In this document: in pieces, positions 1,242 through 22,002 of the stretch
Position numbering within the stretch: position 1 is the stretch's first letter
Layout: the number at the start of each line of letters is the position of its first letter
Assembly (NCBI GenBank): GCA_026392155.1
Contig: JAPLCP010000172.1
Location: 1-52,200 of the forward strand
Reading direction: 5' to 3'
DNA: 52,200 nucleotides
Source of the DNA: Armatimonadota bacterium
GTDB lineage: Bacteria > Armatimonadota > Armatimonadia > Armatimonadales > Armatimonadaceae
The notes under the pieces: generated by a model
Seen by the model: only the letters and a program-made list of their open reading frames with translations
The model's database searches: none
What the model was told of the DNA's origin: nothing
Translations under genes and position numbers: made by a program

Positions 1242-2756
1242 TTACGGATTAAAAGTAGCCTTGAACTCACCCAGAGCGCGGTTCAGGTTGTCCTCAATGT
1301 CCTGAGAGAAGGTCTTGGTCTCGGCGATCTTCACCGGGACGTCGGGGTACTTGTCCGCGACGTAGGCCAGGAACTCTTTCTCGAACTTGCGGACGGACTC
1401 TACCGGCAGGTCGTCCAGAGCGCCCGACGTCGCGGAGTAGATCGAGATGATCTGCCACTCCACACGCATCGGGGCGTACTGATCTTGCTTGAGCAGCTCG
1501 ACGAGGCGCTGGCCACGGGAGAGCTGGTGCTGGGTCGCTTTGTCAAGATCCGAGGCGAACTGGGCGAAGGCCTGCACCTCGCGGTACTGTGCCAGCTCCA
1601 GCTTGATGCGCCCACCGACTTTCTTGTCCTTCATCGCCTTGATCTGCGCCGAGCCACCCACGCGGCTCACCGAGACACCCACGTCAATGGCCGGGCGAAC
1701 GCCCGAGTTGAAGAGGTCGGTCTGAAGGAAGATCTGGCCATCGGTGATCGAGATCACGTTGGTCGGAATATAGGCAGAAACGTCTCCAGCCTGCGTCTCG
1801 ATGATTGGCAGCGCCGTGAGCGAGCCACCACCGCGCTCGTTGGAGAGCTTGGCGGCGCGCTCCAGAAGCCGGGAGTGCAGATAAAAAACGTCGCCCGGGT
1901 AGGCTTCGCGCCCTGGCGGGCGGCGCAGGAGCAGCGATACCTGGCGGTACGCGACGGCTTGTTTGGACAGATCATCGTAGATGATCAAGGCGTGGCGGCC
2001 TGAGTCTCGGAAGTACTCCGCCATCGCACAGCCGGCGTAGGGCGAGAGGTACTGGAGTGACGCGGGATCGGACGCCGTGGCGGCGATCACCGTGGTGTAC
2101 TCCATCGCGCCATTGGCGCGAAGCGCCTCAACGACCATACGAACCGTAGAGGCTTTTTGACCGATCGCCACGTAGAAACAGAACACGTCCTGCCCCTTCT
2201 GGTTGATGATCGTGTCAATTGCAATCGCGGTCTTACCCGTCTGGCGGTCGCCAATGATCAGCTCACGCTGTCCACGGCCAATGGCGAGCATCGAGTCAAT
2301 AGACTTGATCCCCGTGTACATTGGCTCTTTAACAGGCTGACGGTCCACAACGCCGGGAGCTTTGATCTCCAGAAGGCGTTGCTCAGCGGCGACGATAGGT
2401 CCACCGTCGTCAATGGGCTGACCGAGCGCATTGACCACACGGCCTACAAGCCCTTCGCCCACCGGCACTTCGATAATGCGCCCGGTACGCTTGACGGTGT
2501 CGCCCTCGCGGATTCCCTCGGCATTGCCAAGAATAATCGCGCCGACATTGTCCTCTTCCAGGTTGAGCGCCATTCCCATGACGCCGCCGGGGAACTCCAA
2601 AAGCTCCGCCACCGCGACATCACTCAGGCCGTAGATACGAGCAACGCCATCACCGACCTGAAGGACGGTACCGACGCCGACTTCCTCGACCCCGCTCTGA
2701 TAACTTGCCAGCTCTCGCTCTAGGATGCTGGTGACTTCATCGGGTCTTACTGCCAT
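1242..2756 (-). CDS. atpA: F1 ATP synthase subunit alpha
   Basis: Non-catalytic nucleotide-binding alpha subunit of the F1 head, acting on the cytoplasmic side of the membrane. The 504-residue length is typical. The N-terminal beta-barrel ([18 protein letters not shown]) is followed by the Walker A motif GDRQTGKT at residues 169-176 and the family signature with the arginine finger, [17 protein letters not shown]. The ATG at 2756 is preceded by a modest GGAAAA ribosome-binding site, 12 bases after atpH. It is the last gene of its operon: a strong terminator follows, so the gamma, beta and epsilon subunits must be encoded elsewhere. Confidence 0.98.
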
Positions 2757-2768
2757 AATTTTTCCGTT

Positions 2769-3311
2769 TTACTTTTTGGTAAGAAGCTGCTCGCGTAGTC
2801 GCTCCAGCTTCCCCTTAACCGTGCCATCCAGCACCGTGTCGCCAATACGCACCAGAATGCCCCCCATCAGGCTAGGATCCACGCTGGTAGTCAGCTCGAT
2901 ATCCTTGCCCGTGCGTGCTTCTAGCGCCTTCTCCAGTGCCGCAAGCTGCGCCGCGCTGAGAGGGACTGCCGTGGTAGCCGATGCGGAGACGACATTGTTA
3001 TGTGCCCGGACAAGGGCGTCAAACTCCGTCTTAGCATCGGCGAGCAAGTCCATGCGCCGCTTATCGGCCAGCAAGCTCAGAAACCCAAGGGTCGCCGGTG
3101 AGACGGCTTTGGAGAAAGCGGCATCAAGTACCATTTTCTTGCGACTCACCGTCGCCAGAGGGTGCCCAATCATGCGTGCCAGCGCCGCATTGCCCACAAG
3201 AGCCTCCGCGACATGTGCCAGATCCGCTGAGGTTTCCTTCAGCGTGTTGGTTGCCTTGGCCTGGTTGAACAGTGCCGCCGCGTAGCGACGGGAGACAGAC
3301 TCTTCGCGCAT
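2769..3311 (-). CDS. atpH: ATP synthase subunit delta (OSCP)
   Basis: Peripheral-stalk subunit that links the top of F1 to the b-subunit stalk. It has 180 residues, the normal length, with the typical opening SVSRRYAAALFNQAK and a C-terminal region ending MGGILVRIGDTVLDGTVKGKL, which matches the conserved delta C-terminus (GG+.++IGD.V.D.S). Its ATG shares one base with the atpF stop codon (TAATG), so it is probably translated by re-initiation after atpF. Confidence 0.96.
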   Translation of the reverse strand: MREESVSRRYAAALFNQAKATNTLKETSADLAHVAEALVGNAALARMIGHPLATVSRKKMVLDAAFSKAVSPATLGFLSLLADKRRMDLLADAKTEFDALVRAHNNVVSASATTAVPLSAAQLAALEKALEARTGKDIELTTSVDPSLMGGILVRIGDTVLDGTVKGKLERLREQLLTKK

Positions 3312-4186: not shown

Positions 4187-5113
4187 TTAGTGTGCGTGCG
4201 CCGCGTCCTGATGGCCATGTACGTCGTGCCCATGACCATGCTCGTCGTGACCATGGCTATCGCCATGATCGCCGATGGCCAGTGCGATATAGGAGCAGGT
4301 CAGGATCGCAAAGACCCCCGCCTGCACAATCGCACCGAACACACCGAAGGCCAGCATCGGGGCGTGTAGCGGGATCACAAACGTGGCCGCTGACATCGTC
4401 ACGAGTACCGCAATAACGGTCTCTTCCCCGAAGATATTTCCAAAAAGTCGCATCCCAAGCGAGATGGGACGCACCAGAACCCCGATGATCTCAATCGGGA
4501 ACAGCAGGGGAGCCAGAAACGGGATGGGACCGGCGAAGTGCGCCAGGTAGTTTTTGATCCCGTTGGCCTTGATTCCCACCACATTGAAGATCACAAAGAC
4601 GATGAAGCCCAGCGCCAGTGTGAGAGAGAGGTTGGAGCTCGGAGCGGGCGTGAACGATCCTGCAGGGCCACCCGGCTCGTGGCTTTTTTGCAGATAGAAC
4701 GGCAGCACGCCACAGAGGTTGGAGCAGAGCACAAAGGCAAAGATCGTCCCCACAAAAGCGGTAAACTTCTCGCCACCTGGCCCAATCGCGCCGCGGCAAA
4801 AGTGCTGCATCGAGGCCACAGCCTGCTCCGCCAGCAGCTGTCCTCGGCTGGGATTGCGCGCAGAGAGGTTCTTGGCACGCATGCCGAAGAAGAAGACAAT
4901 TGCCAGCCCGACTCCCATCGCCATGAAGCTGTAGTAAGATGCCGGATGTTCCGCCAGCGGATTGACCGCTTCATGGGCCGCGCCGTGTGCGCCTGCTGCG
5001 CCGTGCTCGCCCCCTGCCTCACCGCCGTGCTCCTGCGCCCAAGCAAGTGCCGTCGTCAGAGCCAGAGTGATCAGGCTCGCCCCTATTCGCTTCAGTTGTA
5101 TCGCCAAGCTCAT
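4187..5113 (-). CDS. atpB: ATP synthase subunit a with His-rich termini
   Basis: Stator channel subunit of Fo. The 308-residue protein has the conserved half-channel helix with the essential arginine, in [17 protein letters not shown], and the usual five to six membrane helices. It starts with a signal-like hydrophobic segment (residues about 8-26, ending LAWAQ) and then a Gly/Ala/His-rich stretch. The last 30 residues hold 10 histidines alternating with Gly and Asp (such as [15 protein letters not shown]). Such a His-rich tail is not part of the usual family and looks like a metal- or proton-binding extension. The ATG overlaps the stop of the preceding gene (ATGA). Confidence 0.96.
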
Positions 5114-5544
5114 TTTTTATCCGTCGTGCCCTGTTCGGTGAGAATCTTTCCCACCGCTCTCAGGGCTATCGCTGCATGTAGCAGAAGAAATCCTATCACG
5201 AACGCCGCCAGCTCTCTCGTGGCCCATACCCGGGTAAGCCACCAGATCAGCGCTCCGACCAGCGGGTATTTTACCAGAGCAAACAGCAGAAACAGTGCAA
5301 CTGTCCGCGTCTTTCTCCGACTTTTTTCACCCGCACTCGCTCCGACCGTCTTTTTGGCGGCCTGAACCAGCGCCTGGATAAACCCCCACCAGCCGAGCAA
5401 GAGTACCACAGCCAGCGCCAATCCCGCCAACAGGGGCACAATCGCCCAGGGCAAACCGAAGTTCGCCAGACAGAGACTTGCACACGCCGCCAGTATCCCA
5501 GCGGCCCGCAGAGTTTTCTGCACATACTCTCGCGTCTCGTCCAT
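5110..5544 (-). CDS. AtpI-like four-helix membrane protein
   Basis: A 144-residue protein with four predicted membrane helices, roughly at 15-33, 34-60, 80-103 and 109-132, separated by a basic loop (AGEKSRRKTRT). Its length, topology and position directly before atpB match AtpI, a membrane protein thought to help assemble the c ring in some bacteria. The sequence is too divergent to be certain. Its stop overlaps the atpB start (ATGA) and it follows the AtpZ-like gene by only a few bases. An alternative is an unrelated four-helix protein captured by the operon. Confidence 0.7.
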   Translation of the reverse strand: MDETREYVQKTLRAAGILAACASLCLANFGLPWAIVPLLAGLALAVVLLLGWWGFIQALVQAAKKTVGASAGEKSRRKTRTVALFLLFALVKYPLVGALIWWLTRVWATRELAAFVIGFLLLHAAIALRAVGKILTEQGTTDKK

Positions 5545-5551
5545 TTTGCGA

Positions 5552-5905
5552 CTATTTATTCAGGGCATTTGCAAGCTTGATTAAGTTCGCAAACCCTGAG
5601 ATCGTCCCTAGCAGAAAGCCGACAATCAGCCCGTAGGGAGTGGCGGACTTAATCAGATACTTGTCTACCAGCCAGCCGACCAGCACACCGCCGATGATCG
5701 AGCCCACGAGAGCCGTGCCAATTCCCATGGCCTTTCCCATGTTACCCGCATCTTCTCCCCCGATTCCACGGCGCTTTAGGTAGCGCTCAGCAGGATCTTC
5801 GAGGGAGCGGGGACGCTGATACGACACTTGGGGCGGCTCAGGCAGACGGGGCCGAGCGGGCAGCTCCGGCTCGGCTAGCTCTTCGGCATCACTTTTGGCA
5901 CTCAT
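5552..5905 (-). CDS. AtpZ/ATPase gene 1-like membrane protein
   Basis: A 117-residue protein with a proline-rich cytoplasmic N-terminus (PEPPQVSYQRPRSLEDP) and two C-terminal helices containing GGVLVGWLVDKYL and TPYGLIVGFLLGTISGFANL. The second segment is the hallmark of the AtpZ/AtpQ family (PF09527), which lies at the head of many ATP synthase operons and has been linked to magnesium or calcium transport. I prefer the ATG at 5905, which overlaps the lysC stop as ATGA and has GGGAGAA just upstream; a GTG three codons earlier is an alternative. Confidence 0.85.
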   Translation of the reverse strand: MSAKSDAEELAEPELPARPRLPEPPQVSYQRPRSLEDPAERYLKRRGIGGEDAGNMGKAMGIGTALVGSIIGGVLVGWLVDKYLIKSATPYGLIVGFLLGTISGFANLIKLANALNK

Positions 5906-7278
5906 TTCTCCCACCCCAGCCCAAACTCTTCGTGCAGGGCCCGTGTGGCCTTCTGGGCATCGGCTTCGGGGATCAGCGCTGATATCGAGTGACGCGAGTC
6001 GGCCATCTGAAAGACGGGGATTCCTAGCGCGTTTAGTGTTCCCAGTATCCGGAGGACGACACCCGGAATGTCTTCCAGCCCTGAGGCAATCACCGAGACC
6101 ATCGTGCAGTTCTCGATCACATCGGCCTGTACATGACCAAGAGCGATATAGGCTCTCGCGCCTTCGAGCAGTCCTTTTTGTGCGGTGAACCCCTTCCCCT
6201 TGGGACCAACTCCCAGCAGATAGATCGTCCCAAACGGCGGCTGGCGACGCACCACCCCAAGCTGAACGGGAAGTACCAGGCCATCCAGAAGCTCTTTGAG
6301 CCGCGGCAAGTGCGTCCGCTCGACCGCAAACGCAAAGTCCGTGTCACTGGCGCTGGTGAGCTGTACCGCGATCTTCTCACGCTCTAATAGCCGGTAGACC
6401 TCGACCTCAACCCGCGCACGATCCGCCTCCGGGCTATCTAGAGGCAAGGGGAAGCGCAGATAGACCAGCTTACCGGTATGGGTAACTCCGGTAAAGCGCG
6501 CCTGTCCACCGCCTGAGTCTGCCGTGATCAGAGTCCCCTGCTCCTCGTCAAACGTATTTTTCACCCAGAGCGGCACACCGTGAATGCCTGCGATCTCAGC
6601 AGCACGCGGATGGACGACTTTCGCACCCTGGTGCGCCATCTCCGCCACTTCGTCGTAGGTGGCACGGGGGAGAGTTCTCGCCGCAGGCACGTGGCGGGGA
6701 TCTGCGGTCTTGACGCCGTTCACATCGGTGTAGATCTCGACCTCGACGGTCTCTGCATGAGGCTTTAGAGCCGCTCCCAGAGCCGCTGCTGTGGTATCGG
6801 AGCCGCCGCGCCCCAGAGTCGTGATCGCGCCGCGCTCGGTGCCCCCCTGGAAACCGGCGACCAAAACGACTTTCCCCTGCCCCAGCATCTCCACAATATA
6901 GGCGGGGTTGATCGAGAGAATACGGGCGTTGCCAAACTGGTAGTTGGTGAGAATTCCGGCCTGTAGCCCGGTGAGCGCGATGGAGTCTAGCCCCGCAGCA
7001 CGGAGCGCATGGGCCAAGACCACGGTCGAGATGATCTCACCACAGGCCATCATCATGTCCAGCTCACGCGGTGCGGGGGGAACCGCAGGGTCAACATCGC
7101 GCAGGGTCTGGATCAGCGTATCGGTGGCGTAGGGCGCTCCCGCACGACCAATGGCACTCACGACCACAACAACCTGCCAGCCCGCCTGCACCGCGCGGAT
7201 GATCTTGCTGGCGGCCTTCTGCCTTGCTTCATCCGTCGCAACCGAGGTTCCGCCGAATTTCTGAACGAGAATTCTCAT
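5902..7278 (-). CDS. lysC: Aspartate kinase
   Basis: Cytosolic enzyme that phosphorylates L-aspartate, the first step of lysine, threonine, methionine and diaminopimelate synthesis. At 458 residues it is a full monofunctional enzyme: the amino-acid kinase domain opens with VQKFGGTSV (residues 5-13), contains TLGRGGSDTTAAALG and YTDVNGVKTADPR, and is followed by two ACT domains; the second contains VIASGLEDIPGVVLRIL and SRHSISALI, the usual effector-binding pattern. It overlaps its neighbours by ATGA on both sides, so it is translationally coupled to an ACT-domain protein upstream and to the ATP synthase genes downstream. This linkage is unusual. Confidence 0.95.
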   Translation of the reverse strand: MRILVQKFGGTSVATDEARQKAASKIIRAVQAGWQVVVVVSAIGRAGAPYATDTLIQTLRDVDPAVPPAPRELDMMMACGEIISTVVLAHALRAAGLDSIALTGLQAGILTNYQFGNARILSINPAYIVEMLGQGKVVLVAGFQGGTERGAITTLGRGGSDTTAAALGAALKPHAETVEVEIYTDVNGVKTADPRHVPAARTLPRATYDEVAEMAHQGAKVVHPRAAEIAGIHGVPLWVKNTFDEEQGTLITADSGGGQARFTGVTHTGKLVYLRFPLPLDSPEADRARVEVEVYRLLEREKIAVQLTSASDTDFAFAVERTHLPRLKELLDGLVLPVQLGVVRRQPPFGTIYLLGVGPKGKGFTAQKGLLEGARAYIALGHVQADVIENCTMVSVIASGLEDIPGVVLRILGTLNALGIPVFQMADSRHSISALIPEADAQKATRALHEEFGLGWEK

Positions 7279-8389: not shown

Positions 8390-8413
8390 TTGGCACAAAC
8401 GCGGGTCGGGTGT

Positions 8414-8421
8414 GGTATCCT
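8414..8421 (+). promoter_or_regulatory. Predicted extended -10 of parAB
   Basis: GGTATCCT lies 24 bases before the parA ATG and matches the element seen before prfC and the GTPase module. parS site 1 is just upstream, so ParB spreading could touch this promoter. Confidence 0.4.
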
Positions 8422-8445
8422 GTGCGACGGAGGATACACTGCGTT

Positions 8446-9267
8446 ATGGCGCTAGTTTGGGCCGTTGTTAATCAAAAAGGCGGTGTCGGCAAGACAACCA
8501 CGGCCATCAATTTGGCCGCTTATATTGCGCGGGAGCGCCGGGTCTTGCTTGTGGACACCGATCCTCAGGGAAATGCGACTAGTGGTCTTGGCATAGATCG
8601 GGCGCAAGTGGAGAAAGATGCCTATAGCATTCTGGTCCAGGGCGACACCATTGCAGAGACTCGTCGCAAGACCGCGATCCCCAACCTGGATCTGGTTCCT
8701 GCAACCATCAACCTCGCAGGTGCAGATCTCGAGATCGCCAGCCGAGCCGAAAGAGAGTACATTCTCAAGAAAGCCCTTGCGGAGGTCGCTGATGACTACG
8801 ACTATGTCCTCATAGACTCACCGCCCTCACTTGGGATGATCACGGTCAACACCCTTACCGCAGCCAATCAGGTCATCATCCCCCTCCAATGCGAGTACTT
8901 TGCCCTCGAGGGAATCACGCAGCTTTTGGAGATCATTGATCGAGTGCGTCGCGGCCTCAATCCCGACCTCGAGATTGGGCGCGTCGTACTGACACTTTTT
9001 GATGGACGCACCAACCTAGCCAACCAGGTGATGCAGGAAGTCAAGTCTTATTTTGGCGATGCGGTCTCACCGACCGTCGTGCCACGCAACGTCAAGCTCT
9101 CCGAGGCTCCCAGCTTCGGTCAGCCTATCTCTGCCTACGACCCCAAGTCCAAAGGGGCGGTGGCCTATGAAAATATCGCGAAGGAGTTAATAGCGCATGT
9201 CGAGCGGAAAACGGGTACTGGGGAGGGGACTGGCCGATCTGATTCCCGTTGGTGGCGGCGCCGCTAA
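8446..9267 (+). CDS. parA: Chromosome-partition ATPase ParA/Soj
   Basis: Walker-type ATPase that moves ParB-parS complexes along the nucleoid. The ATG at 8446 follows GGAGG and gives 273 residues. Walker A with the deviant lysine (KGGVGKTT, residues 11-18), Walker A' region LLVDTDPQGNATSGLG and Walker B LIDSPPSLG are all present, as are the late motifs ALEGITQLLE and PRNVKLSEAPS. It is the chromosomal (Soj) type without an N-terminal helix-turn-helix. The reading frame runs 71 bases into parB, giving a C-terminal tail of basic, Gly/Trp-rich residues beyond the usual family end; this tail looks incidental. Confidence 0.96.
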   Translation: MALVWAVVNQKGGVGKTTTAINLAAYIARERRVLLVDTDPQGNATSGLGIDRAQVEKDAYSILVQGDTIAETRRKTAIPNLDLVPATINLAGADLEIASRAEREYILKKALAEVADDYDYVLIDSPPSLGMITVNTLTAANQVIIPLQCEYFALEGITQLLEIIDRVRRGLNPDLEIGRVVLTLFDGRTNLANQVMQEVKSYFGDAVSPTVVPRNVKLSEAPSFGQPISAYDPKSKGAVAYENIAKELIAHVERKTGTGEGTGRSDSRWWRRR

Positions 9268-10195
9268 TGTCTTAGGGGTCGGGAGCGATGGCGAGCTCTC
9301 TTTGGCCATTTCGGGGCATGAGATCCCGATTGCTAGCCTGCACGCCCACCCAAATCAGCCACGTACCCGCTTTGATGAGGGTGCACTGGAGGAGCTTGCC
9401 AACTCCATCCGGGTCAATGGGATTCTCCAGCCAATTCTGGTGCGTCCCCGGATCGCAGGTGGCTATGAGATCGTCGCTGGTGAGCGCCGCTATCGGGCCG
9501 CCCTCCGTGCGGGCCTGGTTAAAGTTCCCGTAGTCATCCGTGAGATCTCGGATGAAGACACGCTGGCTCTTGCCCTTATTGAGAACCTCATCCGTGAGGA
9601 CATCGGTCCGATGGAGACAGCGCGGGCCTTCCGTCGCCTCATGGATGACTTTGGTTGGACTCAAGAGGAAATGGGGCAACGGGTAGGCAAGAGTCGTCCT
9701 GCCATTGCCAACTCCCTGCGCCTTTTAGAGCTCCCCACCCCCATTCAGCTCAGTGTCGAAAATGGAGACATTACCGAGGGCCATGCTCGTGCGCTTCTTG
9801 GAGATCGCAAGAGCCGCCAGGATGTGGTTTTTCAGAAACGTCAGCTCGATGTCTTTAACCAGGCAGTGAATAAAGGGTTGACGGTTCGTGATGTTGAGCG
9901 CTTGATGAGCCCTCCGGCTCCCTCGACCTCCATAGCGCCTGACCCTGAGCGTGTCACGCCTGCGGACTGGAAAGCTCTCGAAGATCGGCTCCGCACGGCC
10001 CTTGGGACACGTGTCCGCTTAGTAGGCACCGAAGACAAGGGTAAGATCGAGGTGGAGTTCTTCTCGGGTGAGGAGCTAGAGGGGCTGCTGCTACGCCTCG
10101 ACCCACCGCCCGCCCCAACGAGCCTTCCTGCTCCTAACCAGAAACAGGCGGGAAGTCGCATCTCGGGCCTGCTAACAACCCGCCGCACCCTCTAA
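9197..10195 (+). CDS. parB: ParB/Spo0J centromere-binding CTPase
   Basis: Binds parS and spreads along DNA as a CTP-dependent clamp. The 332-residue protein opens with the typical VLGRGLADLIP segment, then has the ParB N-domain with HPNQPRTRFDE and the arginine-rich CTP-binding box GERRYRAA, the helix-turn-helix around TQEEMGQRVGKSRPAIANSL, and a C-terminal dimerisation region (GKIEVEFFSGEELEGLL). Two perfect parS sites lie immediately upstream of the parA promoter and immediately after the parB stop codon. It overlaps the 3' end of parA by 71 bases. Confidence 0.96.
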   Translation: MSSGKRVLGRGLADLIPVGGGAANVLGVGSDGELSLAISGHEIPIASLHAHPNQPRTRFDEGALEELANSIRVNGILQPILVRPRIAGGYEIVAGERRYRAALRAGLVKVPVVIREISDEDTLALALIENLIREDIGPMETARAFRRLMDDFGWTQEEMGQRVGKSRPAIANSLRLLELPTPIQLSVENGDITEGHARALLGDRKSRQDVVFQKRQLDVFNQAVNKGLTVRDVERLMSPPAPSTSIAPDPERVTPADWKALEDRLRTALGTRVRLVGTEDKGKIEVEFFSGEELEGLLLRLDPPPAPTSLPAPNQKQAGSRISGLLTTRRTL

Positions 10196-10196
10196 T

Positions 10197-10910
10197 TTGT
10201 TTCACGTGAAACAAATTCAATTAGAAGCCTCCCTCAGTGCTGAGGGAGTAACGGTGGGAAGTGCCCTCACAGCGGTCACGCTAAAGCTTCCCGCAGGGCA
10301 GCTCACGGGGATCATCGGCCCCAATGGCTCCGGCAAGACCACGCTCCTGCGCTGCCTTGTGGGAGAACGCAAGCCTGACTCTGGTAGAATCTGCCTCGGG
10401 AAAGAGGCCCTAGAGAACCTAAAACCTCAACTGAAGGCCCAGCTCCTGACCTATCTACCGCAAACCACCCCCATTTCCTTTGCTTTCACCCTGAAAGAGC
10501 TGGCAGGGCTCCAGGCAAGATCAGCCGACACTCTTGCCGCGGCTCTTGAGGCAATGGAGCTAGAGAGCCTGGCGGATCGCTCTCTTCTTACTCTCTCAGG
10601 GGGAGAGCGCCAGCGTGGTGCCATTGCGCGTGTGCTCGCTCAGGCCACACCCCTGCTACTCCTAGACGAGCCCCTCGCCCACCTTGACCTGCGCTACCAG
10701 AAGCGCTTACTGGGGTTTCTCGTGAAACACTGCCAGGCAGGAGGCAGCGTCGCGCTGGCTCTTCATGAGCTACGTCTGGCGCAAAACTGGTGCGACTCTC
10801 TTGTGCTCTTGCACCAGGGGAAGCTCGTTGCAGAAGGAACACCTACCGAGGTTCTGACTCCGGATAGACTTGAAAACGTCTTTGGTGTCGAAGCAGGTTT
10901 TGCCTATTAA
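10197..10910 (+). CDS. ABC transporter ATP-binding protein, FecE/BtuD type
   Basis: A 237-residue ABC ATPase with all motifs: Walker A GPNGSGKTT, signature LSGGERQR, Walker B LLLLDEPLAHLD and the switch histidine in ALHEL. Overall it is closest to ATPases of iron-siderophore, heme and cobalamin importers, but no permease or binding protein is nearby, so the partner is unknown. The likely TTG start at 10197 overlaps a parS site, so the first residues (MFHVKQ) are the in-frame reading of parS; a GTG at 10206 is an alternative. There is no visible Shine-Dalgarno sequence and it begins one base after the parB stop, pointing to co-transcription. Confidence 0.88.
   Translation: MFHVKQIQLEASLSAEGVTVGSALTAVTLKLPAGQLTGIIGPNGSGKTTLLRCLVGERKPDSGRICLGKEALENLKPQLKAQLLTYLPQTTPISFAFTLKELAGLQARSADTLAAALEAMELESLADRSLLTLSGGERQRGAIARVLAQATPLLLLDEPLAHLDLRYQKRLLGFLVKHCQAGGSVALALHELRLAQNWCDSLVLLHQGKLVAEGTPTEVLTPDRLENVFGVEAGFAY
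10198..10213. other. parS: parS site 2 (perfect), overlapping a start codon
   Basis: TGTTTCACGTGAAACA lies three bases after the parB stop and covers the first codons of the ABC ATPase gene. Confidence 0.95.
10714..10729. other. Degenerate parS inside the ABC ATPase gene
   Basis: GGTTTCTCGTGAAACA matches the parS consensus at 14 of 16 positions (mismatches at 1 and 7). It lies within coding sequence 0.5 kb from parS site 2 and may be a weak ParB site or chance. Confidence 0.35.
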
Positions 10911-12635: not shown

Positions 12636-13229
12636 ATGATGTTAGCACCCGCTCGAATGCTAGATCTGCTCACTCCGCGTCTCTGGACACCCGATCAGGG
12701 CGCGGCAGGGCTGATTTTCATCCCTCCCCCTCGGAGATTGATCACCGTAGTAGGGGGACAGATAGCATCGGCAGGAGACCGTGTGAGCGCAAGCCTCACG
12801 GTGCAAAGAGAGCGCTTTCAAGCGACACCAGGAGGTTTAATCATCGTGAGCAGTTCGCGCAAAAAGGAGCCCGGTCGAACGATAGGGCACCCAGATCTCG
12901 CCTCAGGGGCCAGCGTGCAACGAGGCGATGTCCTCTATGTCTCTATTGCGGAAGCGGTCTACCGCGAGTCACGCGGGGAGACTATCGAGCTCCATTTCGA
13001 GTCCACCGAAGAAGACAACGAAGCGCTTCGGGAGCTACGCGTGCGTGCCCGCAACCGCTGGGAGAACGATCGCCTCCCCGATGGTTGGACACGACCGCTC
13101 CCCCTACCTGCCCCCAGCCCCAAGAAAACGGGCCTCTCTGAAGAGCTACGCGCACTCGCAGAGGAGTGGAACGCCCGCCAGAGAGGCCCTGAAGCTCTTG
13201 AGGCCCCAGAGGCTACCGAAGAGGACTAA
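12636..13229 (+). CDS. Hypothetical protein
   Basis: A 197-residue protein that I cannot place in a family. The first half has alternating beta-type stretches (GLIFIPPPRRLITVVGGQI and GDRVSASLTVQRERF), the second half is charged and ends in a Pro/Lys-rich linker (PLPLPAPSPKK) and an acidic helix. There is no signal peptide or membrane helix. The ATG at 12636 follows AAGTAGGGA, a fair ribosome-binding site, 13 bases after the HAD gene, so the two are likely co-transcribed. It ends convergently with htrA, overlapping it by four bases. Confidence 0.7.
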   Translation: MMLAPARMLDLLTPRLWTPDQGAAGLIFIPPPRRLITVVGGQIASAGDRVSASLTVQRERFQATPGGLIIVSSSRKKEPGRTIGHPDLASGASVQRGDVLYVSIAEAVYRESRGETIELHFESTEEDNEALRELRVRARNRWENDRLPDGWTRPLPLPAPSPKKTGLSEELRALAEEWNARQRGPEALEAPEATEED

Positions 13230-14350
13230 GGCGCTTCCGCAAGACGCAGACGGACGGTGCTAGGCTGGCCATCACGGAGGATTCCCAGCTCAACTTCCTG
13301 CCCGATTCGCTGGCTCTCCAGCACCTTGCGGTAACTTGCCTCATCGGGAGTGGGAGTGCTTGCCAGTCGCACGATGACATCGCCCTGCTGAAAGCCTGCC
13401 ATGGCCGCGGGGGAGCTACGGTAGACAGCCCGAACCACCACGCCACTTGTTCCCTCAGGAAGCCGTAGCATCCGTGCCAAGCGTGCCGTCAGCTCCGTGG
13501 TAACCACCCCATCGTAAGGGCGCCGGACCTTGCCGTAGCGCTTGAGCTCTCCGACGATCTGCATGGCGGTCTTGATAGGGATCGCAAAGCCGATATTCTG
13601 GGCATCCGTGCGCACCAGAGTGTTAATTCCCACGACTTTCCCCCCCAGGTCCACCAGCGCCCCCCCCGAGTTGCCCGGATTGATAGCCGTGTCGGTCTGA
13701 ATGAGATTCTCGTAGGTGCGGTCTTCCATCACCAGAGGTCGTCCCAGCGCCGAGACCACGCCTGCTGAGACCGAGTGCGAGAGGCCCACAGGGTTGCCAA
13801 TCGCCAAAACCGTCTGACCAGGCAGCAGCGCATCGTTCTCCCCAAGCTGAGCAGTCGGCAGGCGCTGTGGGTCTTGGACTTTAAGAAGCGCAACATCGGT
13901 GGCGCGATCCGCCCCAACAGGCTGCGCGGTAAATACCCGGCCATCGGTGAGGGTGATCGTGATCTTTCCGCCCGTCTTTACGGACTCCCCGACCACGTGC
14001 TGATTGGTGAGGACATAGCCACCCTCTAACAAAACACCCGACCCCGCTCCCGTCGGCACTTCGCGGGTCTCCTGGCGGCCCCGGCCATAGAACCAGTCCT
14101 CACGGCTATCAAAGACCGTCCGACTCTGGCGTGAGGTTGTGTCAATCGCCACTACCGAGGGAGCCGCGAGCCGTGCCGCCTGCACAATGGGCTCTTTATC
14201 CGCCGCGTAGGGAGGGGCCGCCACCGCCAGCTTGCCCGGCAGAAGCGACTCCACACTTCCCCCCCGCACTGTCACACACGCCCCTGCCAGCATGCCCACG
14301 AGCAGCGTCCCAAGAGCTGTTGCGGGGTGATTCCATCGAAAACTAGCCAT
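13226..14350 (-). CDS. HtrA/DegP-like serine protease with PDZ domain
   Basis: Envelope protease for misfolded proteins. I start it at the ATG at 14350, which has AAGGAG 11 bases upstream; this gives 374 residues. An N-terminal hydrophobic segment (residues 9-27) is a signal or anchor. The trypsin-like domain has the complete triad: H118 in LTNQHVVG, D152 in RATDVALLKV and S228 in NPGNSGGALVD. One PDZ domain follows (about 282-370, with SSPAAMAGFQQGDVIVRLA), placing it in the single-PDZ DegS/HtrA group. The gene is transcribed alone, away from a small divergent ORF. Confidence 0.95.
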   Translation of the reverse strand: MASFRWNHPATALGTLLVGMLAGACVTVRGGSVESLLPGKLAVAAPPYAADKEPIVQAARLAAPSVVAIDTTSRQSRTVFDSREDWFYGRGRQETREVPTGAGSGVLLEGGYVLTNQHVVGESVKTGGKITITLTDGRVFTAQPVGADRATDVALLKVQDPQRLPTAQLGENDALLPGQTVLAIGNPVGLSHSVSAGVVSALGRPLVMEDRTYENLIQTDTAINPGNSGGALVDLGGKVVGINTLVRTDAQNIGFAIPIKTAMQIVGELKRYGKVRRPYDGVVTTELTARLARMLRLPEGTSGVVVRAVYRSSPAAMAGFQQGDVIVRLASTPTPDEASYRKVLESQRIGQEVELGILRDGQPSTVRLRLAEAP

Positions 14351-14496
14351 GACAAATCTTACTCCTTTTGCCTTTTTCATACGCAGGAAAAAAAACAAAG
14401 TTCCCCAAGTGAAAGAAATTGCACGGGGAAGCTACAGCGCCACCCGCGTAGCTACAAGCAGCTCAAAGAGATTGGCATAGAGGAGGAAATAGAGTT

Positions 14497-14652
14497 GTGA
14501 ACAACAATTTGCCTGAGTCTACTCTAGGCAAACATTTGCAGGAAGAAGCGGCTCAGCCCACACCTGCAACCTCAGGACTCTGGGAACGTGTGCAGACCAA
14601 ACGAAGCAAAAAGACGTTTCTTACACGTGTATTTCAGGTCAAAACCCAGTAG
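14497..14652 (+). CDS. Small 51-residue ORF with strong ribosome-binding site
   Basis: A GTG at 14497 is preceded by AGGAGG (14481-14486), one of the best ribosome-binding sites of the window, and opens 51 codons up to TAG at 14650. The product is polar with a basic C-terminus (VQTKRSKKTFLTRVF) and no membrane segment. It overlaps the end of the minus-strand permease gene by 19 bases. Upstream, 14351-14496 holds an inverted repeat (TTCCCC at 14401-14406, GGGGAA at 14425-14430). I do not recognise it; the case rests on the ribosome-binding site and the otherwise empty interval. Confidence 0.45.
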   Translation: MNNNLPESTLGKHLQEEAAQPTPATSGLWERVQTKRSKKTFLTRVFQVKTQ

Positions 14653-15422
14653 CGTAGGAGGGTCTGCACGGAGAGCATCACACCGATGGCGATCACCAGC
14701 TTGCGGACGTTGCCTGCCCCCAGTTTACGTGCCACACCGACGGCAAGCCAGCCGCCTAGCATCGCGCCGATGGTCATCAAGGCCGCGAGCTTGAGATCCA
14801 CTTTGTGGCTGATCATGAGCACCACCGACGCCACGACGTTCAAGCCACCCGTGAAGACCGTCTTGAGGCCGTTCATCTTATGGATCTCGGTCATGCCCAG
14901 CATTCCGAGAGCCGCCAGCGTCAGAATCCCAATGCCCGCCCCAAAGTAGCCACCGTAGACCGCCACACCCAGCAAAAACAAGGCAATGGGTAAGGGGAAT
15001 TTCTTCCCCTCCTCCCAGGATTGGGAGGAGGGAGGAGCGGAGCGGAGGGAGGAGGGCTTGAGCTTATCTTGAAAGGCGAAGAGCAGCGTCGCAGCGAGAA
15101 TCAGAAACGGGATCAGCCGGTCAAAGATGCGGGTCGGGGTGGCCAGTAGCAGCAGCGCGCCAATCGTTGCTCCGACAAGTGCAATCAGGGCTAGGGGGAG
15201 CATGAGATGACGCAGGCCACCCAGCTCTTTTCGGTAGCCCAGAAACGAGGCCAATGCCCCCGGAGCGAGCCCGGCGGAGTTGGTGGCGTTGGCGACAATC
15301 GAGTCTATGCCGCCGGAGAGGAGCACAGGGAAGGTCAGGAGTGTTCCCCCACCCGCCACAGAGTTCACACCCCCTGCCACAAAAGACGCCACAAAGACCA
15401 GCCCGAGCTGGAGCATGGTCAT
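14634..15422 (-). CDS. TSUP-family (TauE/SafE) membrane permease
   Basis: A 262-residue inner-membrane protein with eight or so helices. The duplicated TSUP signatures are clear: AGGVNSVAGGGTLLTFPVLL near the N-terminus and GGYFGAGIGILTLAALG in the second half. Family members export sulfite, sulfoacetate or related anions; the substrate here is unknown. The loop between the two halves (PSSLRSAPPSSQSWEEGKK) is encoded by a dispersed palindromic repeat, described separately. The ATG overlaps the stop of the presenilin-PDZ gene (ATGA), so the two are coupled. Confidence 0.9.
   Translation of the reverse strand: MTMLQLGLVFVASFVAGGVNSVAGGGTLLTFPVLLSGGIDSIVANATNSAGLAPGALASFLGYRKELGGLRHLMLPLALIALVGATIGALLLLATPTRIFDRLIPFLILAATLLFAFQDKLKPSSLRSAPPSSQSWEEGKKFPLPIALFLLGVAVYGGYFGAGIGILTLAALGMLGMTEIHKMNGLKTVFTGGLNVVASVVLMISHKVDLKLAALMTIGAMLGGWLAVGVARKLGAGNVRKLVIAIGVMLSVQTLLRYWVLT
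15004..15032 (-). repeat. Palindromic repeat copy 1, inside the TSUP gene
   Basis: A 10-bp perfect stem (CCTCCTCCCA / TGGGAGGAGG, 15008-15031) with a four-base loop, in frame within the central loop of the permease. The same sequence occurs between proS and an SDR gene at 40151-40178. Confidence 0.75.
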
Positions 15423-16648
15423 GGAAGCATCACTTTCACATCCAGCGGCTTCTTCTCGCCAAGGCGGCGCAGTCGAACACTTAGCCCCGTTTTCTCGGCA
15501 TCCTCTAGCGCCTTAAACCAGTCCTCATTGCGTATCAGAGTGGCTGTCTTGACCCCATTGATGCTCTCAATCACATCACCCGGCTTGATGCCCGCTTTTT
15601 CGATGGGCATATTTGCCATCACGCCCACGACCAAGCGCTCGCTTGTCTCGCGAACGACTCCCACCTGCCAGCCCCACTTGGGGACGCGCTGGTTGCTGGC
15701 GGGCTCTTTGGGCTGACTGGCGAAGAAGCGCTTGGCTCCAGCGATAATAAGCGCGGCGCAGAAAATCGCAAAGACGGCCCCGATCCACAGATCCCGCCTC
15801 TCTTGCTTGGAAAAAGCGGCGTAGCGAGCGTTGGCGATCAGCAGGCCAATCCCCATCGGCACCCACGCGGGAATCGGGAGGCCCGTGGTCTCGACAAGCA
15901 CCAGCGCCAGCGCAAGAAGCCCAAAGACCCACCAGAAGGTTCGCTTGAGTGGGATCTGCCACTCGGGCTTTAGCCTTGGGAACTGGACAATGGCCGCAAA
16001 GAAGAGCGCGGGCAGCAGCACATCGGCGGGGCCAATCGTCACCCCAGAGAGAAGCGGGATGGCTTTCGTGAGCTGCATCGGTAGCTGCGGCTGGGGCGAG
16101 CCGCCCCCCACAGAGACCAAGGAGATCAGCTTAGAATTAGCCTGCATCGCCTGCGCCACCGTGCCCATGGTCACCATCACGATATCAAAGAAGATCACAA
16201 TCCCCGCCAGCGCCAAGAGTGTGTTGGGATGCTTGATAATCTTGCGCCCCAGGGCTGCCCCCATCAAAATCACGCCCACCGGCAAAAAGAGATTGTTGGC
16301 GGTCAGAAAGAGCGGCAGAGGCACCGGCACACGGAATGTCTCCGTGAGAAGATAGACCACGCCCATAGGGACGGCAAGTAAAAGCCCCACGAGTCCTAAA
16401 AATCCTGGGCTCTGGGGAAGACGTGCCGCTCCTGCGGCGGCAGTCATCAGGGCGAGCAAGAGAGGGAACAGATAGACTAGCGATCCGAGATGCCCCGCCA
16501 CACTCTGCGCAGCAGGAATGGGCACCCAAACGCCTAGATAACGGTTGAGGAGCGTGAGCAGAAACGCCCCGAAAGCACCACCGACCAGTGCCCAAAAGGC
16601 ACCCGAAACTTGCTGAGGCGATTCATGAGGTGAGGTGGAGACTGTCAT
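15419..16648 (-). CDS. Presenilin/SPP-like intramembrane aspartyl protease fused to PDZ
   Basis: A 409-residue membrane protein starting at the ATG at 16648 (AGG just upstream). About nine helices are followed by a C-terminal PDZ domain (residues about 328-409, with NMPIEKAGIKPGDVIESINGV). The membrane part shows the order of landmarks seen in presenilin and signal peptide peptidase: an aspartate in helix 6 (D155, VIFFDIVMV; family YD), a linker resembling their MV.VA...P, a second aspartate in IGPADVLLPALFF (D209; family GxGD followed by hydrophobic-P), and a PAL-like PIPAWVP (258-264) about 51 residues later. I infer an intramembrane protease, but FD and GPAD depart from the strict motifs. 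Coupled to the TSUP permease. Confidence 0.65.
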   Translation of the reverse strand: MTVSTSPHESPQQVSGAFWALVGGAFGAFLLTLLNRYLGVWVPIPAAQSVAGHLGSLVYLFPLLLALMTAAAGAARLPQSPGFLGLVGLLLAVPMGVVYLLTETFRVPVPLPLFLTANNLFLPVGVILMGAALGRKIIKHPNTLLALAGIVIFFDIVMVTMGTVAQAMQANSKLISLVSVGGGSPQPQLPMQLTKAIPLLSGVTIGPADVLLPALFFAAIVQFPRLKPEWQIPLKRTFWWVFGLLALALVLVETTGLPIPAWVPMGIGLLIANARYAAFSKQERRDLWIGAVFAIFCAALIIAGAKRFFASQPKEPASNQRVPKWGWQVGVVRETSERLVVGVMANMPIEKAGIKPGDVIESINGVKTATLIRNEDWFKALEDAEKTGLSVRLRRLGEKKPLDVKVMLP

Positions 16649-16775
16649 TGGTACCTGTTCATTAGCCTTGCAGGTGGCAAGGATGCTAAAATCAGTATAC
16701 AATCGAAAGCTGTCGCGTGTCTATGGCGGAGGTTTTGATCTTACTGCTGAGACACAATTAAGGAGTTTTGAATAA

Positions 16776-17351
16776 GTGGAACCACTGCGAATTGTGATCG
16801 CAGACGATGAGCCCATCATCCGAATGGACCTCCGGCGTACGCTGGAGAATATGGGACACATCGTAGCGGGGGAGGCTGGGGACGGTCGCCAAGCGATCGA
16901 AGTCACCCGCGAACTCAAGCCAAATGTCGTGATCCTCGACGTGAAGATGCCCCAAATGGACGGAATTGACGCCGCCAAGGTTATCTCCACGGAGGGTGTC
17001 GCACCTGTCCTGCTCCTGACCGCCTACTCCGACCGGGAGCTTGTGGAGCGGGCTAAGGATGCAGGCGTCTTCGCCTACCTGATCAAGCCTTTCAAAGAGG
17101 CAGATCTAATGCCCGCCATCGAGATCGCCATCGCTCGTTTCGAGGAGATGCTGGAGATCGAGAAAGAAGTGGCAGACCTGGAGAACAAGCTAGAGACCCG
17201 AAAAGCGGTAGACCGCGCCAAGGGGATCTTAATGGATCTCTACGGACTCAAGGAGCAAGACGCGTTCCGTCGTATCCAAGTCCAGAGCATGAATACCCGT
17301 AAGTCCATGCGTGAGATCGCTGAGGCGATCATTATCGCAAACTCGGTCTGA
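16776..17351 (+). CDS. ANTAR-domain response regulator
   Basis: A 191-residue two-domain regulator. The receiver domain has the acidic pair (ADDEP), the phospho-acceptor Asp in VVILDVKMPQMDG, the switch Thr/Ser in LLLTAYSD and the conserved Lys in YLIKPF. A coiled linker leads to a C-terminal ANTAR domain (KAVDRAKGILMDLYG, then EQDAFRRIQVQSM). ANTAR domains bind paired RNA hairpins and prevent transcription termination, so its targets should be leader RNAs. It starts with GTG at 16776 behind AAGGAG and is followed by its likely partner kinase one base after its stop. Confidence 0.95.
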   Translation: MEPLRIVIADDEPIIRMDLRRTLENMGHIVAGEAGDGRQAIEVTRELKPNVVILDVKMPQMDGIDAAKVISTEGVAPVLLLTAYSDRELVERAKDAGVFAYLIKPFKEADLMPAIEIAIARFEEMLEIEKEVADLENKLETRKAVDRAKGILMDLYGLKEQDAFRRIQVQSMNTRKSMREIAEAIIIANSV

Positions 17352-17352
17352 C

Positions 17353-19065
17353 GTGCAAAAACAAACCGCGGAGGAGCTTCAGCGACTTCTGGAGCGACGC
17401 GAGCACGAGCTAGCGGATGCCCGTCAGCGCATCCGCCAGCTTGAAGAAGCACTCGATGCACGCGCCTCTGAGGCAGCTGCCCTCCGCCGTATCTCTGAAG
17501 CCACCGGTCAGGTGGTCACGACCGACGACATCCTTCCCTTAATCGCCGAGATCGCTCTGGAGGTGACCGACACAGAGTCCGCTCTGGTCTATCTCTTCAA
17601 CGAGTCGGGCGACACTCTGGTACTACGCGCCGCCACTGACGAGCCGATCAAGCCCCTTATTGGCAAGCTACGGCTGAAGATCGGCGAGGGGATCACGGGG
17701 TGGGTTGCAAAGGAGAAAAAACACGTCGCGCTGGCTTCCGAAGCCTGGAGCGACGAGCGCTTTAAGTTCCTCCCCGAGCTCAACGAGGACCGCTACCAGA
17801 GCATTCTCTCGGTGCCGCTTATCTGGCGCGATGAGTGCATTGGCGTGGTCAACGTTCGCACGCAGGCCCCCCACACCTACACCAAAACCCAAGTCCAGCT
17901 CCTCTCGGCCATTGCCTCCCAAGTCGCGGGGGCCATCCAGACCAGCCGCAAAGTGCGCAACGCCGAGAAAAGCGCCACACATCTCTCGACCGTGGCCGAG
18001 GTCTCACGAACCATTACCTCCAATCTCTATCTGGAAGAGATCTTGCAGCTCGCGGTTGCGGCCATGGCCCAGACCCTGAACTTTAAGATTGTCGCTCTGC
18101 GCCTGGTGGATGAAGAGAAACAGCAGCTCGTCGTCAAGGCCGTGCACGCCGCCTCAAAAGACTACGCCCGTCGCCCACCGCTTCATATTGGCGAAGGTCT
18201 AGCTGGGCGCGCTGCCGAGACGGGAAAAGTGGTCACGGTGCTTGATGTCAAAAAATCCCCCGACTACAAGTTTGGCGATATCGCCCGTGAGCAGAATCTT
18301 ACGAGCTTAGCGTGTGTGCCGCTCAAAGTGCGCGACCGGGTGATTGGCGTGCTCAACTGCTACACCGACCAGCCCCATGACTTCACTGAGGGTGAGCTCA
18401 ACGTGCTCTCGACACTAGGTAACCAAGTTGCCGTAGCGATTGAGAACGCCAAGCTGATGGTCAAAGGTGCCCTGCTTCAGGAGATGCATCACCGCGTTAA
18501 GAATAACCTCCAGCAGATTGCCAGCCTCTTGCGCCTCCAGAAACACTACGCCGGCGATCGGCCTGCCACCGAAGTGCTGGAAGAGTCCATAGGCCGCGTG
18601 ATGGCCGTCTCTGCTGTCCATGAGCTACTCTCTCGCGAGGATCTGGACACGATCTCCATCCGCAAGATCGCTGAGCATATCGTTCTGGCGACCAAGCAGA
18701 GCCTGACGCTCCCTAACAAGCGCATTGAGTTCCGGGTAGAGGGGCCCGAGCTGCGCCTCTCCAGCCACCAGGCAAACTCCGTCGCGCTGGTGCTCAACGA
18801 GATGGTGCAAAACGCCGTCGAGCATGGTTTCAAGCTCGCCGATGAGGGAACGATTCTGGTGCGCCTCATGGAAAAACCCAATGACTGGCTCTTAGAGGTG
18901 CGTAATACGGGCGATACCCCCCGCCCCGACTTTAACCCGGATAAGCACCACGACCTAGGGCTACAGATCGTCCAGGGTCTCGTGCGCGGCGACCTTCAAG
19001 GCGAGTTCAAGCTCCTCCGTGATGGCGAAGAGACCGTCGCCTCCATCCGCTGGCCCAAGACGTAA
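17353..19065 (+). CDS. GAF-GAF histidine kinase (HisKA_2/HWE type)
   Basis: A 570-residue kinase starting at the GTG at 17353, one base after the ANTAR regulator's stop. A coiled N-terminus (LQRLLERREHELADARQRI) leads into two GAF domains (about 50-200 and 215-370, each with LVLRAATDE or LVVKAVHAA-type strands and the phrase GEGI/GEGL...GRAAETG). The phospho-acceptor helix is of the HisKA_2 type (EMHHRVKNNLQQIASLLRLQ) and the ATPase domain has NEMVQNAVEHGFK. There are no membrane helices, so it senses a cytosolic ligand. The arrangement resembles EutW/EutV-like kinase-ANTAR pairs, but the signal is unknown. Confidence 0.94.
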   Translation: MQKQTAEELQRLLERREHELADARQRIRQLEEALDARASEAAALRRISEATGQVVTTDDILPLIAEIALEVTDTESALVYLFNESGDTLVLRAATDEPIKPLIGKLRLKIGEGITGWVAKEKKHVALASEAWSDERFKFLPELNEDRYQSILSVPLIWRDECIGVVNVRTQAPHTYTKTQVQLLSAIASQVAGAIQTSRKVRNAEKSATHLSTVAEVSRTITSNLYLEEILQLAVAAMAQTLNFKIVALRLVDEEKQQLVVKAVHAASKDYARRPPLHIGEGLAGRAAETGKVVTVLDVKKSPDYKFGDIAREQNLTSLACVPLKVRDRVIGVLNCYTDQPHDFTEGELNVLSTLGNQVAVAIENAKLMVKGALLQEMHHRVKNNLQQIASLLRLQKHYAGDRPATEVLEESIGRVMAVSAVHELLSREDLDTISIRKIAEHIVLATKQSLTLPNKRIEFRVEGPELRLSSHQANSVALVLNEMVQNAVEHGFKLADEGTILVRLMEKPNDWLLEVRNTGDTPRPDFNPDKHHDLGLQIVQGLVRGDLQGEFKLLRDGEETVASIRWPKT

Positions 19066-19263: not shown

Positions 19264-19770
19264 ATGTATACGTTTGCTTATCTTGGAATGCAGAATATTG
19301 TCATCATCTTGGTGATTGCCCTGCTTATATTTGGACCTCAAAAAGTTCCCGAACTGGCTCGTCAGATCGGGGGGGCACTGCGTGACCTGAAAAAGATGTC
19401 CAATGACGTTCAGTCGGCGTTCGATTTGGACGATCACTCGTCGTACGATCGCTACGAGCCGCCCACGTACGAGTACACCCCTCCGGTCAGTACGACCTAT
19501 GACCACGAGCCGCTGGATCAGTATGGCTTGCCTGCTGTCGCAGAGCACCCAGCTATCGAAGCGGCGGACACGGAGCACTCTGTTGATGTTGATATTGATA
19601 TTGATACAGAGCACTCCACGGAGACGCTGGTGGATGCGGTCGCCACGGAGCAGCTCGCAGAGGCTATCGCTGTAGTACCGCCACTTGAGCTGGAGGCGGG
19701 AACCACCGTATTAGAGGCGGAGACCACAAAAGAAGCGCTAGGGGTCGCTGCGGCGGCAGAGAGCGCTTAA
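19264..19770 (+). CDS. TatA/TatB-like twin-arginine translocase subunit
   Basis: A 168-residue protein with a short N-terminal membrane helix (QNIVIILVIALLIFGPQKVP), the FGP hinge and an amphipathic helix (ELARQIGGALRDLKKM), as in TatA and TatB. The long C-terminal region is acidic and low in complexity (DVDIDIDTEHS; alternating Glu/Ala/Thr), which is longer than usual for TatA and more like TatB. It probably contributes to the Tat pore or substrate receptor in the inner membrane. A TATAAT lies 20 bases upstream of the ATG and AGAGGCGG serves as ribosome-binding site. No tatC is in the window. Confidence 0.88.
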   Translation: MYTFAYLGMQNIVIILVIALLIFGPQKVPELARQIGGALRDLKKMSNDVQSAFDLDDHSSYDRYEPPTYEYTPPVSTTYDHEPLDQYGLPAVAEHPAIEAADTEHSVDVDIDIDTEHSTETLVDAVATEQLAEAIAVVPPLELEAGTTVLEAETTKEALGVAAAAESA

Positions 19771-20463: not shown

Positions 20464-22002
20464 ATGCGCCGTTTTTGCCTCGTAGGTTCTGGTTTGGTTC
20501 TCGTGGGAGCCCCGACACAAGCACAAGACATTACGCGGATCCAGAGTATTGAGGTAAGCGGAACCTCTGTCCTACCCTCTGCCTCCGTACTGGAAGTTGC
20601 AAGAACCATGCTAGAGGGCAAAGAAGCCCAACCCGAAGCTCTCCGCGGCGCTTTTGAGGCAATCAAGGCGCTCTATCAGGCCAAGGGCTACACGCTTGCA
20701 CAAGTCGTCGGCTACCAGCTCTCACCAAGTGGCACGCTCTCTCTCACGATTGCCGAGGGACGTATCCGAAAGATCACGATTCAAGGAGCCAAACGCACCC
20801 GCCTTTCTGTTATCCACGAGGCTCTCTCGCAGCATGAAGGGACGGTCTACCGCGCGGCAACGATTCAGCAAGACCGGGCGCGACTGGGGCGGCTGGGAGT
20901 CTTCAGCGAGGTACTTATCAGCGGTGTCCCTCCCGAAGAGAGTGATGCCACCGACACCATTGGCCTTGTGGACTTAGTAGTGAAGGTCAAAGAATCGCAG
21001 ACCGGCAATGTCGCCGCGACCGTCGGCTATGGCGATGGAACGGGGCTGGTGGGGTTTGTGGACCTCACAGAGAACAACCTGCTTGGAAATGCCCAGCGCG
21101 TCTCAGCTCAGTGGCAGCGGTTTGGGCGGGTGCTCCTTGATAACGATGGCTTTCTGGTGCAAGAAGACCCTCGGACGGCGTTTTATGTCACTCTTCAGCG
21201 CCCTGCTATCGGCCCGCGAAGCCTCGCCTATGGCGTGAGTGTCTATGACCAGAACACAATTTTCCTGCCCACGTTTGGAACTCCGATAGAAACGTTCCGG
21301 AGCTACGAGCGCCGCAAGGGCTTCAATGCACAGCTAGGCAGACCTATTGGAGGAGTCTGGAACCTTGCCCTCACCGCACGGCGTGATGTGGTGGGCTACG
21401 ATCCCGTCCCGGATCGCCTCAATCCACCAACGGCAGAGCTGAGCCGCGCCGGTGCGACGGTTGGTGCGCTCGGGTTCTCGCTCGCGGCGGACACGCGAGA
21501 CCGTGCGGACAACCCACGGACAGGACTTCTCCATCGCCTGCGCTACGAAGCAGCAGGCTCTCTGTTGGGAGGCACGCGTAGCTTCACACAGACCAGCCTG
21601 GATCTGCGCCGCTACAGCCCGATGAGTCTTCCTAAGAAGCCCAATGCCGTCTTTGCCTCTCGCCTTCTGGCAGGGATCTCCTCAGGCGATGTGCCCCTCT
21701 CCGAGCAGTTCTTTCTGGGTGGCTTCGACCTACTACGCGGCTACGAGTTCTTCTCCGTGCGCGGCGATAAGATGGTGCTAGGCTCTGCCGAGGCACGAGT
21801 CCCTCTAGGCGCAGACACAACCGGAGTGGTTTTTCTTGATGCAGGCAATGCCTGGCTGCCGGGCCAGAGTGTCTCGGCGAGTGGACTAAAGGTCGGAGGG
21901 GGCGTTGGGCTGCGCTTCCAGAGCCCCCTTGGCCCGATTCGCTTTGATCTCGCCTTTGGCAATGCATCGCGCACCTATATCTCCCTGGGACAGTCTTTTT
22001 AA
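20464..22002 (+). CDS. Omp85/BamA-superfamily outer-membrane protein
   Basis: A 512-residue protein with a short signal peptide (cleavage likely after TQA, residues about 1-19), two POTRA-like domains (IQSIEVSGTSVLP..., then IRKITIQGAKRTRLSVIHEAL) and a C-terminal beta-barrel (from about residue 180) ending in the family pattern GVGLRFQSPLGPIRFDLAFG and the terminal aromatic GQSF. This group inserts or secretes proteins at the outer membrane. With only two POTRA domains it is shorter than BamA and closer to TamA- or ShlB-like members. Its presence supports a diderm cell. It may be co-transcribed with the next two genes. Confidence 0.92.
   Translation: MRRFCLVGSGLVLVGAPTQAQDITRIQSIEVSGTSVLPSASVLEVARTMLEGKEAQPEALRGAFEAIKALYQAKGYTLAQVVGYQLSPSGTLSLTIAEGRIRKITIQGAKRTRLSVIHEALSQHEGTVYRAATIQQDRARLGRLGVFSEVLISGVPPEESDATDTIGLVDLVVKVKESQTGNVAATVGYGDGTGLVGFVDLTENNLLGNAQRVSAQWQRFGRVLLDNDGFLVQEDPRTAFYVTLQRPAIGPRSLAYGVSVYDQNTIFLPTFGTPIETFRSYERRKGFNAQLGRPIGGVWNLALTARRDVVGYDPVPDRLNPPTAELSRAGATVGALGFSLAADTRDRADNPRTGLLHRLRYEAAGSLLGGTRSFTQTSLDLRRYSPMSLPKKPNAVFASRLLAGISSGDVPLSEQFFLGGFDLLRGYEFFSVRGDKMVLGSAEARVPLGADTTGVVFLDAGNAWLPGQSVSASGLKVGGGVGLRFQSPLGPIRFDLAFGNASRTYISLGQSF

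Follow-up and report, generated by a model that had tools for sequence, protein, structure and literature searches.

A gene on the minus strand of an Armatimonadota contig most probably specifies a divergent member of the intramembrane aspartyl proteases of signal peptide peptidase (SPP)/presenilin (GxGD) type, to judge from its sequence and those of its relatives. The family to which it belongs is near-core in Armatimonadota and yet almost invisible to the standard family models. The gene lies at positions 15419-16648 of the 52,200-nucleotide stretch of DNA analysed (hereafter the window). These coordinates, given by a first-pass annotation that had proposed a presenilin-like protease fused to a PDZ domain, are correct, and the strand is minus, as it is for all features of the gene listed below.

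The coding sequence runs from an ATG at 16648 to the stop at 15419 and specifies 409 residues. The mechanically called open reading frame starts at a TTG at 16702, 18 codons upstream of the ATG, and has 427 residues; D155 and D209 of the 409-residue frame are D173 and D227 in this longer one. The protein comprises a polytopic membrane domain (15725-16594; residues 37-326 of the 427-residue frame), with about nine transmembrane (TM) helices predicted from the family-averaged hydropathy, followed by a C-terminal PDZ domain (15422-15670; residues 345-427) that is predicted to be extracytoplasmic. The motifs that the first-pass annotation had singled out, namely IFFDIVMV, IGPADVLLPALFF and PIPAWVP ahead of the PDZ domain, are all present. 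The first putative catalytic Asp, D155 (codon 16184-16186), lies in FFDIVMV (16172-16192). The Asp of IGPADVLLPALFF, which follows it by 54 residues, is the second, D209 (codon 16022-16024), and closes the GxGD-like GPAD motif (16022-16033). The proline of the PAL-like PAW motif (15863-15871) in PIPAWVP comes 51 residues after D209. The order and spacing of FD, GPAD and PAW are thus those of the presenilin/SPP motifs; however, each departs from its canonical form (FD versus YD, GPAD versus GxGD and PAW versus PAL), and hence the motifs by themselves do not suffice for a claim of membership. In searches against Pfam and NCBIfam only the PDZ domain is recognized, scoring over three Pfam cut-offs: PDZ_6 (PF17820, E-value 7.7e-7), PDZ (PF00595, 3.8e-6) and PDZ_2 (PF13180, 5e-6). 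The membrane domain is named by no model in these collections: PF06550 and the presenilin/SPP models do not match the protein, and PF04258 is absent among its Pfam matches listed at E-values up to 10.

An initial search found relatives in 33 of 61 related genomes, with some of the weak matches confined to the PDZ part. A profile built from an alignment of 17 relatives matched 268 of 291 Armatimonadota genomes (186 of the 194 good genomes), nearly always in a single copy. Beyond this phylum, sampling 75 genomes from other phyla gave matches in two; the two small phyla concerned have relatives in 3/3 and 5/10 genomes, respectively. A search of plasmids recovered none. Among the relatives from these two small phyla (loci L092-L100), L093, L097 and L098 have a longer loop between the two Asp residues. 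In one genome (G014) the protease gene is tandemly duplicated (1228-2178 and 2203-3108 of locus L014), with both Asp residues kept in both copies. The gene is therefore no oddity of a single genome but is near-universal in its phylum.

Across 152 distinct homologues both Asp residues, whose conservation the first-pass annotation had proposed as a check, are invariant, as is the glycine of the GxxD motif (G224). In the PAL-like motif the proline (P278) is retained in 146, the alanine in 99 and the leucine (L280) in 142 of them. The 152 sequences have about 20-25% identity, and yet the Asp residues are unchanged; in a 49-sequence alignment that includes the two further phyla, the D, G and D of these motifs are the sole invariant columns. 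This invariance, together with the canonical motif forms that some homologues show, takes the motif pattern beyond what might be expected by chance. The residue preceding the second Asp is divided evenly between Gly (76) and Ala (76), giving a family motif of the form Gx[G/A]D. The canonical YD is found in four members (L154, L181, L184 and L144), with the remainder mostly showing [VAIF]D; the canonical GLGD is found in L077 and L107, and the canonical PAL in some members as well.

When 84 members were compared with 24,736 Pfam families, presenilin (six members) and SPP (four, best E-value 1.8e-5) were the commonest matches. One of them, L107, whose membership is clear (E-value 5.5e-51 in the family-profile search), scores over the curated cut-off of the SPP family PF04258 (25.0 versus 23.3 bits, E-value 1.8e-5). 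Its residues 135-238 align to positions 138-248 of the 286 in the model, a match that covers D141 and D193 and stops at the PAL-like motif. L093, from another phylum, has the presenilin family PF01080 as its sole match (E-value 0.0031) and gives the best score to that model, 16.8 bits against a cut-off of 34.3; across 397 genomes PF01080 produced only sub-cut-off matches in scattered places. The archaeal SPP/PSH family PF06550 was found in none of 121 Armatimonadota genomes and none of 75 genomes of other bacterial phyla, with archaeal controls being positive. In profile-profile comparisons with hhalign, the family profile matched an SPP/presenilin fragment profile with a probability of 85-89, while 100 hydropathy-preserving shuffles gave at most 7 and the reversed profile about 1; masking the motifs lowered the probability to 4-6 with the register unchanged. 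The sole check on the SPP fragment used here is its match to the solved SPPL2A (E-value 5e-13). Against PDB sequences, the family profile found presenilin-1 among a few weak matches that are not significant (E-values 0.29-3.7), with an alignment spanning GxGD to PAL, and family consensus sequences searched against Pfam returned nothing useful. Taken together, the conservation of the Asp residues, the PF04258 match of L107, the enrichment among Pfam families and the shuffle-controlled profile comparison support the proposed status of the protein as a divergent bacterial member of the presenilin/SPP group, to which residue couplings add moderate support.

These couplings were computed by a mean-field method on 152 sequences (effective number 130) uncorrected for phylogeny. 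The top pair is V177-P278, which links a residue one turn past the first Asp to the PAL proline, while the antiparallel coupled pairs 184-223, 163-229 and 161-233 set D173 level with D227. Eight of the 60 top couplings join the regions of the first Asp, the second Asp and PAL, a number equalled by 0.4% of random window triples. Upon subsampling, 177-278 was kept in 11 of 12 runs and the other tested pairs among these regions in one to six. The couplings hence moderately favor an arrangement in which the three regions come together. AlphaFold2 models from a two-sequence input (the window protein and L021) were of low confidence (pLDDT 38.5 for the full length and 42.3 for the membrane core) and were not used for fold searches; they contain about nine long helices.

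The nine-helix model of presenilin and SPP has five helices before that bearing the first Asp and none after the PAL helix, with the Asp residues on TM6 and TM7 and the PAL motif at TM9. The hydropathy profile of the present family likewise has about nine helices with a different order: four, then those of the first and second Asp, one more, the PAL helix and one extra. Thus, the two Asp residues fall on adjacent hydrophobic segments, the predicted TM5 and TM6, and one helix follows PAL. The positive charge of the loops alternates such that three elements fall outside: the loop between the two Asp residues, that on the PAL side and the PDZ-bearing C-terminus. The Asp-Asp loop and the C-terminus are accordingly predicted to be outside the cytoplasm, as in SPP, which shares the catalytic Asp pair and PAL with presenilin and is oppositely oriented in the membrane (PMC2947513, PMC7768045).

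In the genomic neighborhood, a TauE/SafE-type membrane protein gene (14634-15422, minus strand) overlaps the protease gene by four bases at the stop, an order kept in a genome of the same genus. The HtrA gene noted by the first-pass annotation is confirmed at 13226-14398 (minus strand), with the TauE gene in between. On the other side, Pfam identifies a divergently oriented ANTAR response regulator (16776-17351, plus strand) followed by a GAF/HisKA_2 histidine kinase (17311-19065, plus strand); both are recurrent neighbors, the regulator being no part of the enzyme. Of 42 loci examined across the phylum, 11 have this cluster, which keeps its divergent position next to the protease gene; the ANTAR regulator is 84-99% identical within the family. 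The alternative recurrent neighbors across families are a following leuS and comEA, both named from sequence. The recurrence of one or the other of these contexts across families supports vertical descent. Elsewhere in the window, ParA-like and ParB-like genes occur together with a third frame (8410-10907, plus strand), as near many bacterial replication origins, again judged from sequence. A functional link to HtrA was considered and rejected, as the locus from the same genus and nearly all other loci have no HtrA match; the neighboring HtrA gene is not conserved and does not speak for a shared pathway. The only other HtrA linkage seen is in L070, a distant family member, where the HtrA relative (4823-5851, minus strand) is directly downstream of the protease relative (5929-6957, minus strand).

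These observations bear on three other readings of the protein. It is quite unlikely that the family, while sharing the superfamily and fold, is non-proteolytic or otherwise specialized, with the PDZ domain serving as the adaptor of a scaffold or a pseudo-protease. The variant motifs of the window protein (FD, GPAD and PAW) would fit such a role, as would the Ala before the second Asp in half of the family; in presenilin-1 the residue at this position must be Gly (Steiner et al. 2000, as cited in PMC7768045). However, the retention of both Asp residues in all 152 homologues at this low level of identity is hard to explain without catalysis, and the Ala-type and Gly-type members are alike in their Asp residues. 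We consider it highly improbable that another membrane family, either a transporter or a GxGD protease of the prepilin-peptidase type (A24), has converged on a D...GxGD pattern. While the motifs are short and the profile signal is largely lost once they are masked, the PAL-like motif is correctly spaced, L107 passes the PF04258 cut-off, and presenilin and SPP come out as the commonest matches in the Pfam comparison. Further, A24 does not occur among the matches of ten members tabulated in full at E-values up to 10 and is absent among the families listed in further Pfam scans, including that of the 84 members.

A third reading retains the protease and reverses its topology: the orientation would be that of presenilin, with the active-site loop in the cytoplasm, and type I segments would be cut after a prior cleavage by HtrA or another site-1 protease. 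The HtrA gene two genes away in the window and the adjoining HtrA relative in L070 would be consistent with this. However, the charge distribution places the Asp-Asp loop outside, and HtrA is unmatched in the same-genus locus and nearly all others, making this arrangement unlikely.

We thus return to the SPP/presenilin-type protease as the preferred reading and compare it with known systems. With SPP (A22B, PF04258) the family shares the Asp pair, the GxGD-like and PAL-like motifs, the context following GxGD (..F.A...RF) and the predicted orientation, in addition to the L107 match. It differs in being bacterial, in its core of about 300 residues, in having most members below the PF04258 cut-off, in its four rather than five helices before the first Asp and in its extra helix after PAL; in the window protein a PDZ domain replaces the PA domain of the SPP family. 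Several members have the GxGD-to-PAL region in the same register as presenilin (A22A, PF01080); unlike presenilin, however, the family is predicted to be oppositely oriented, gives no sign of a secretase complex and is never over the presenilin cut-off. Hence, in profile match and predicted orientation the family resembles SPP more closely than presenilin. The archaeal presenilin homologue PSH/MCMJR1 (PF06550) is prokaryotic and single-chain like the present family, with 58 residues between its Asp residues (D162/D220; PMC2947513) versus 54 in the window protein, and the PDZ domain of the latter is not reported there. Site-2 proteases such as RseP likewise combine an intramembrane protease with extracytoplasmic PDZ domains, and the PDZ domain of the window protein resembles those of Aquifex aeolicus RseP, which is however a metalloprotease with an HExxH motif.

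We propose that D155 and D209 would lie on two adjacent antiparallel helices with the PAL-like motif packed against them, and that the enzyme would cut the TM segments of its substrates within the membrane. In eukaryotes, the SPP orientation is associated with type II substrates (PMC7768045). Given that the predicted orientation is SPP-like, the likely substrates are membrane segments with their N-terminus inside; candidates include remnant signal peptides as well as bitopic or type II anchors, whose cleavage might result in clearance or regulated release. The PDZ domain is present in nine genomes of the window's own family and in neither L010/L021 nor the part of L011 that was read; as far as seen, the fusion is limited to that family of genomes. 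Here, the extracytoplasmic PDZ domain placed after the extra helix may bind substrate ends or gate access to the active site, much like the PDZ domains of RseP or like the SPPL2 PA domain, which affects substrate recognition (PMC12043953). It probably selects or senses substrate ends. The window also encodes, downstream of the kinase, a TatA/TatB-like protein (19264-19770, plus strand) and a BamA/FhaC-like outer-membrane protein (20464-22002, plus strand), both judged from sequence; these genes suggest that the host probably has two membranes and a periplasm in which the PDZ domain could reside.

Replacement of RseP or SppA by this protease was considered and rejected. RseP was found in all 41 genomes tested, always as a separate gene, and SppA scores over its cut-off in 25 of the 41, while the genome that contains the window gave no SppA match; the protease would therefore act beside these enzymes. 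Somewhat more tentatively, the family may be a third, bacterial branch of the presenilin/SPP group: vertically inherited, near-universal and single-copy in Armatimonadota and in two small phyla, with a helix plan shifted by one fewer N-terminal and one more C-terminal helix. It might then be the intramembrane signal-peptide and type II anchor protease of the phylum, having gained an extracytoplasmic PDZ sensor after the extra helix in one family.

To our knowledge, the GxGD enzymes known from bacteria are the prepilin peptidases, and we know of no earlier PDZ-fused protease of the presenilin/SPP kind. GxGD proteases of this kind have been described from eukaryotes and archaea (PMC2947513, PMC7768045). 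In a literature search with thin coverage of subscription journals, we found no paper joining Armatimonadota with presenilin or an intramembrane protease, and one passing mention of bacterial presenilins. While the catalytic kind is already known, what would be new are the bacterial branch, the altered helix plan and the PDZ fusion, all as predicted from sequence. A phylum-wide bacterial family would alter the evolutionary picture of these proteases, implying either an old bacterial branch or an early transfer. Its members may serve as small single-chain models for the active site of presenilin, including ones in which Ala naturally occupies the place of Gly384 in presenilin-1. Finally, the near-universality of the gene in Armatimonadota suggests an important cell-envelope function in this little-studied phylum.
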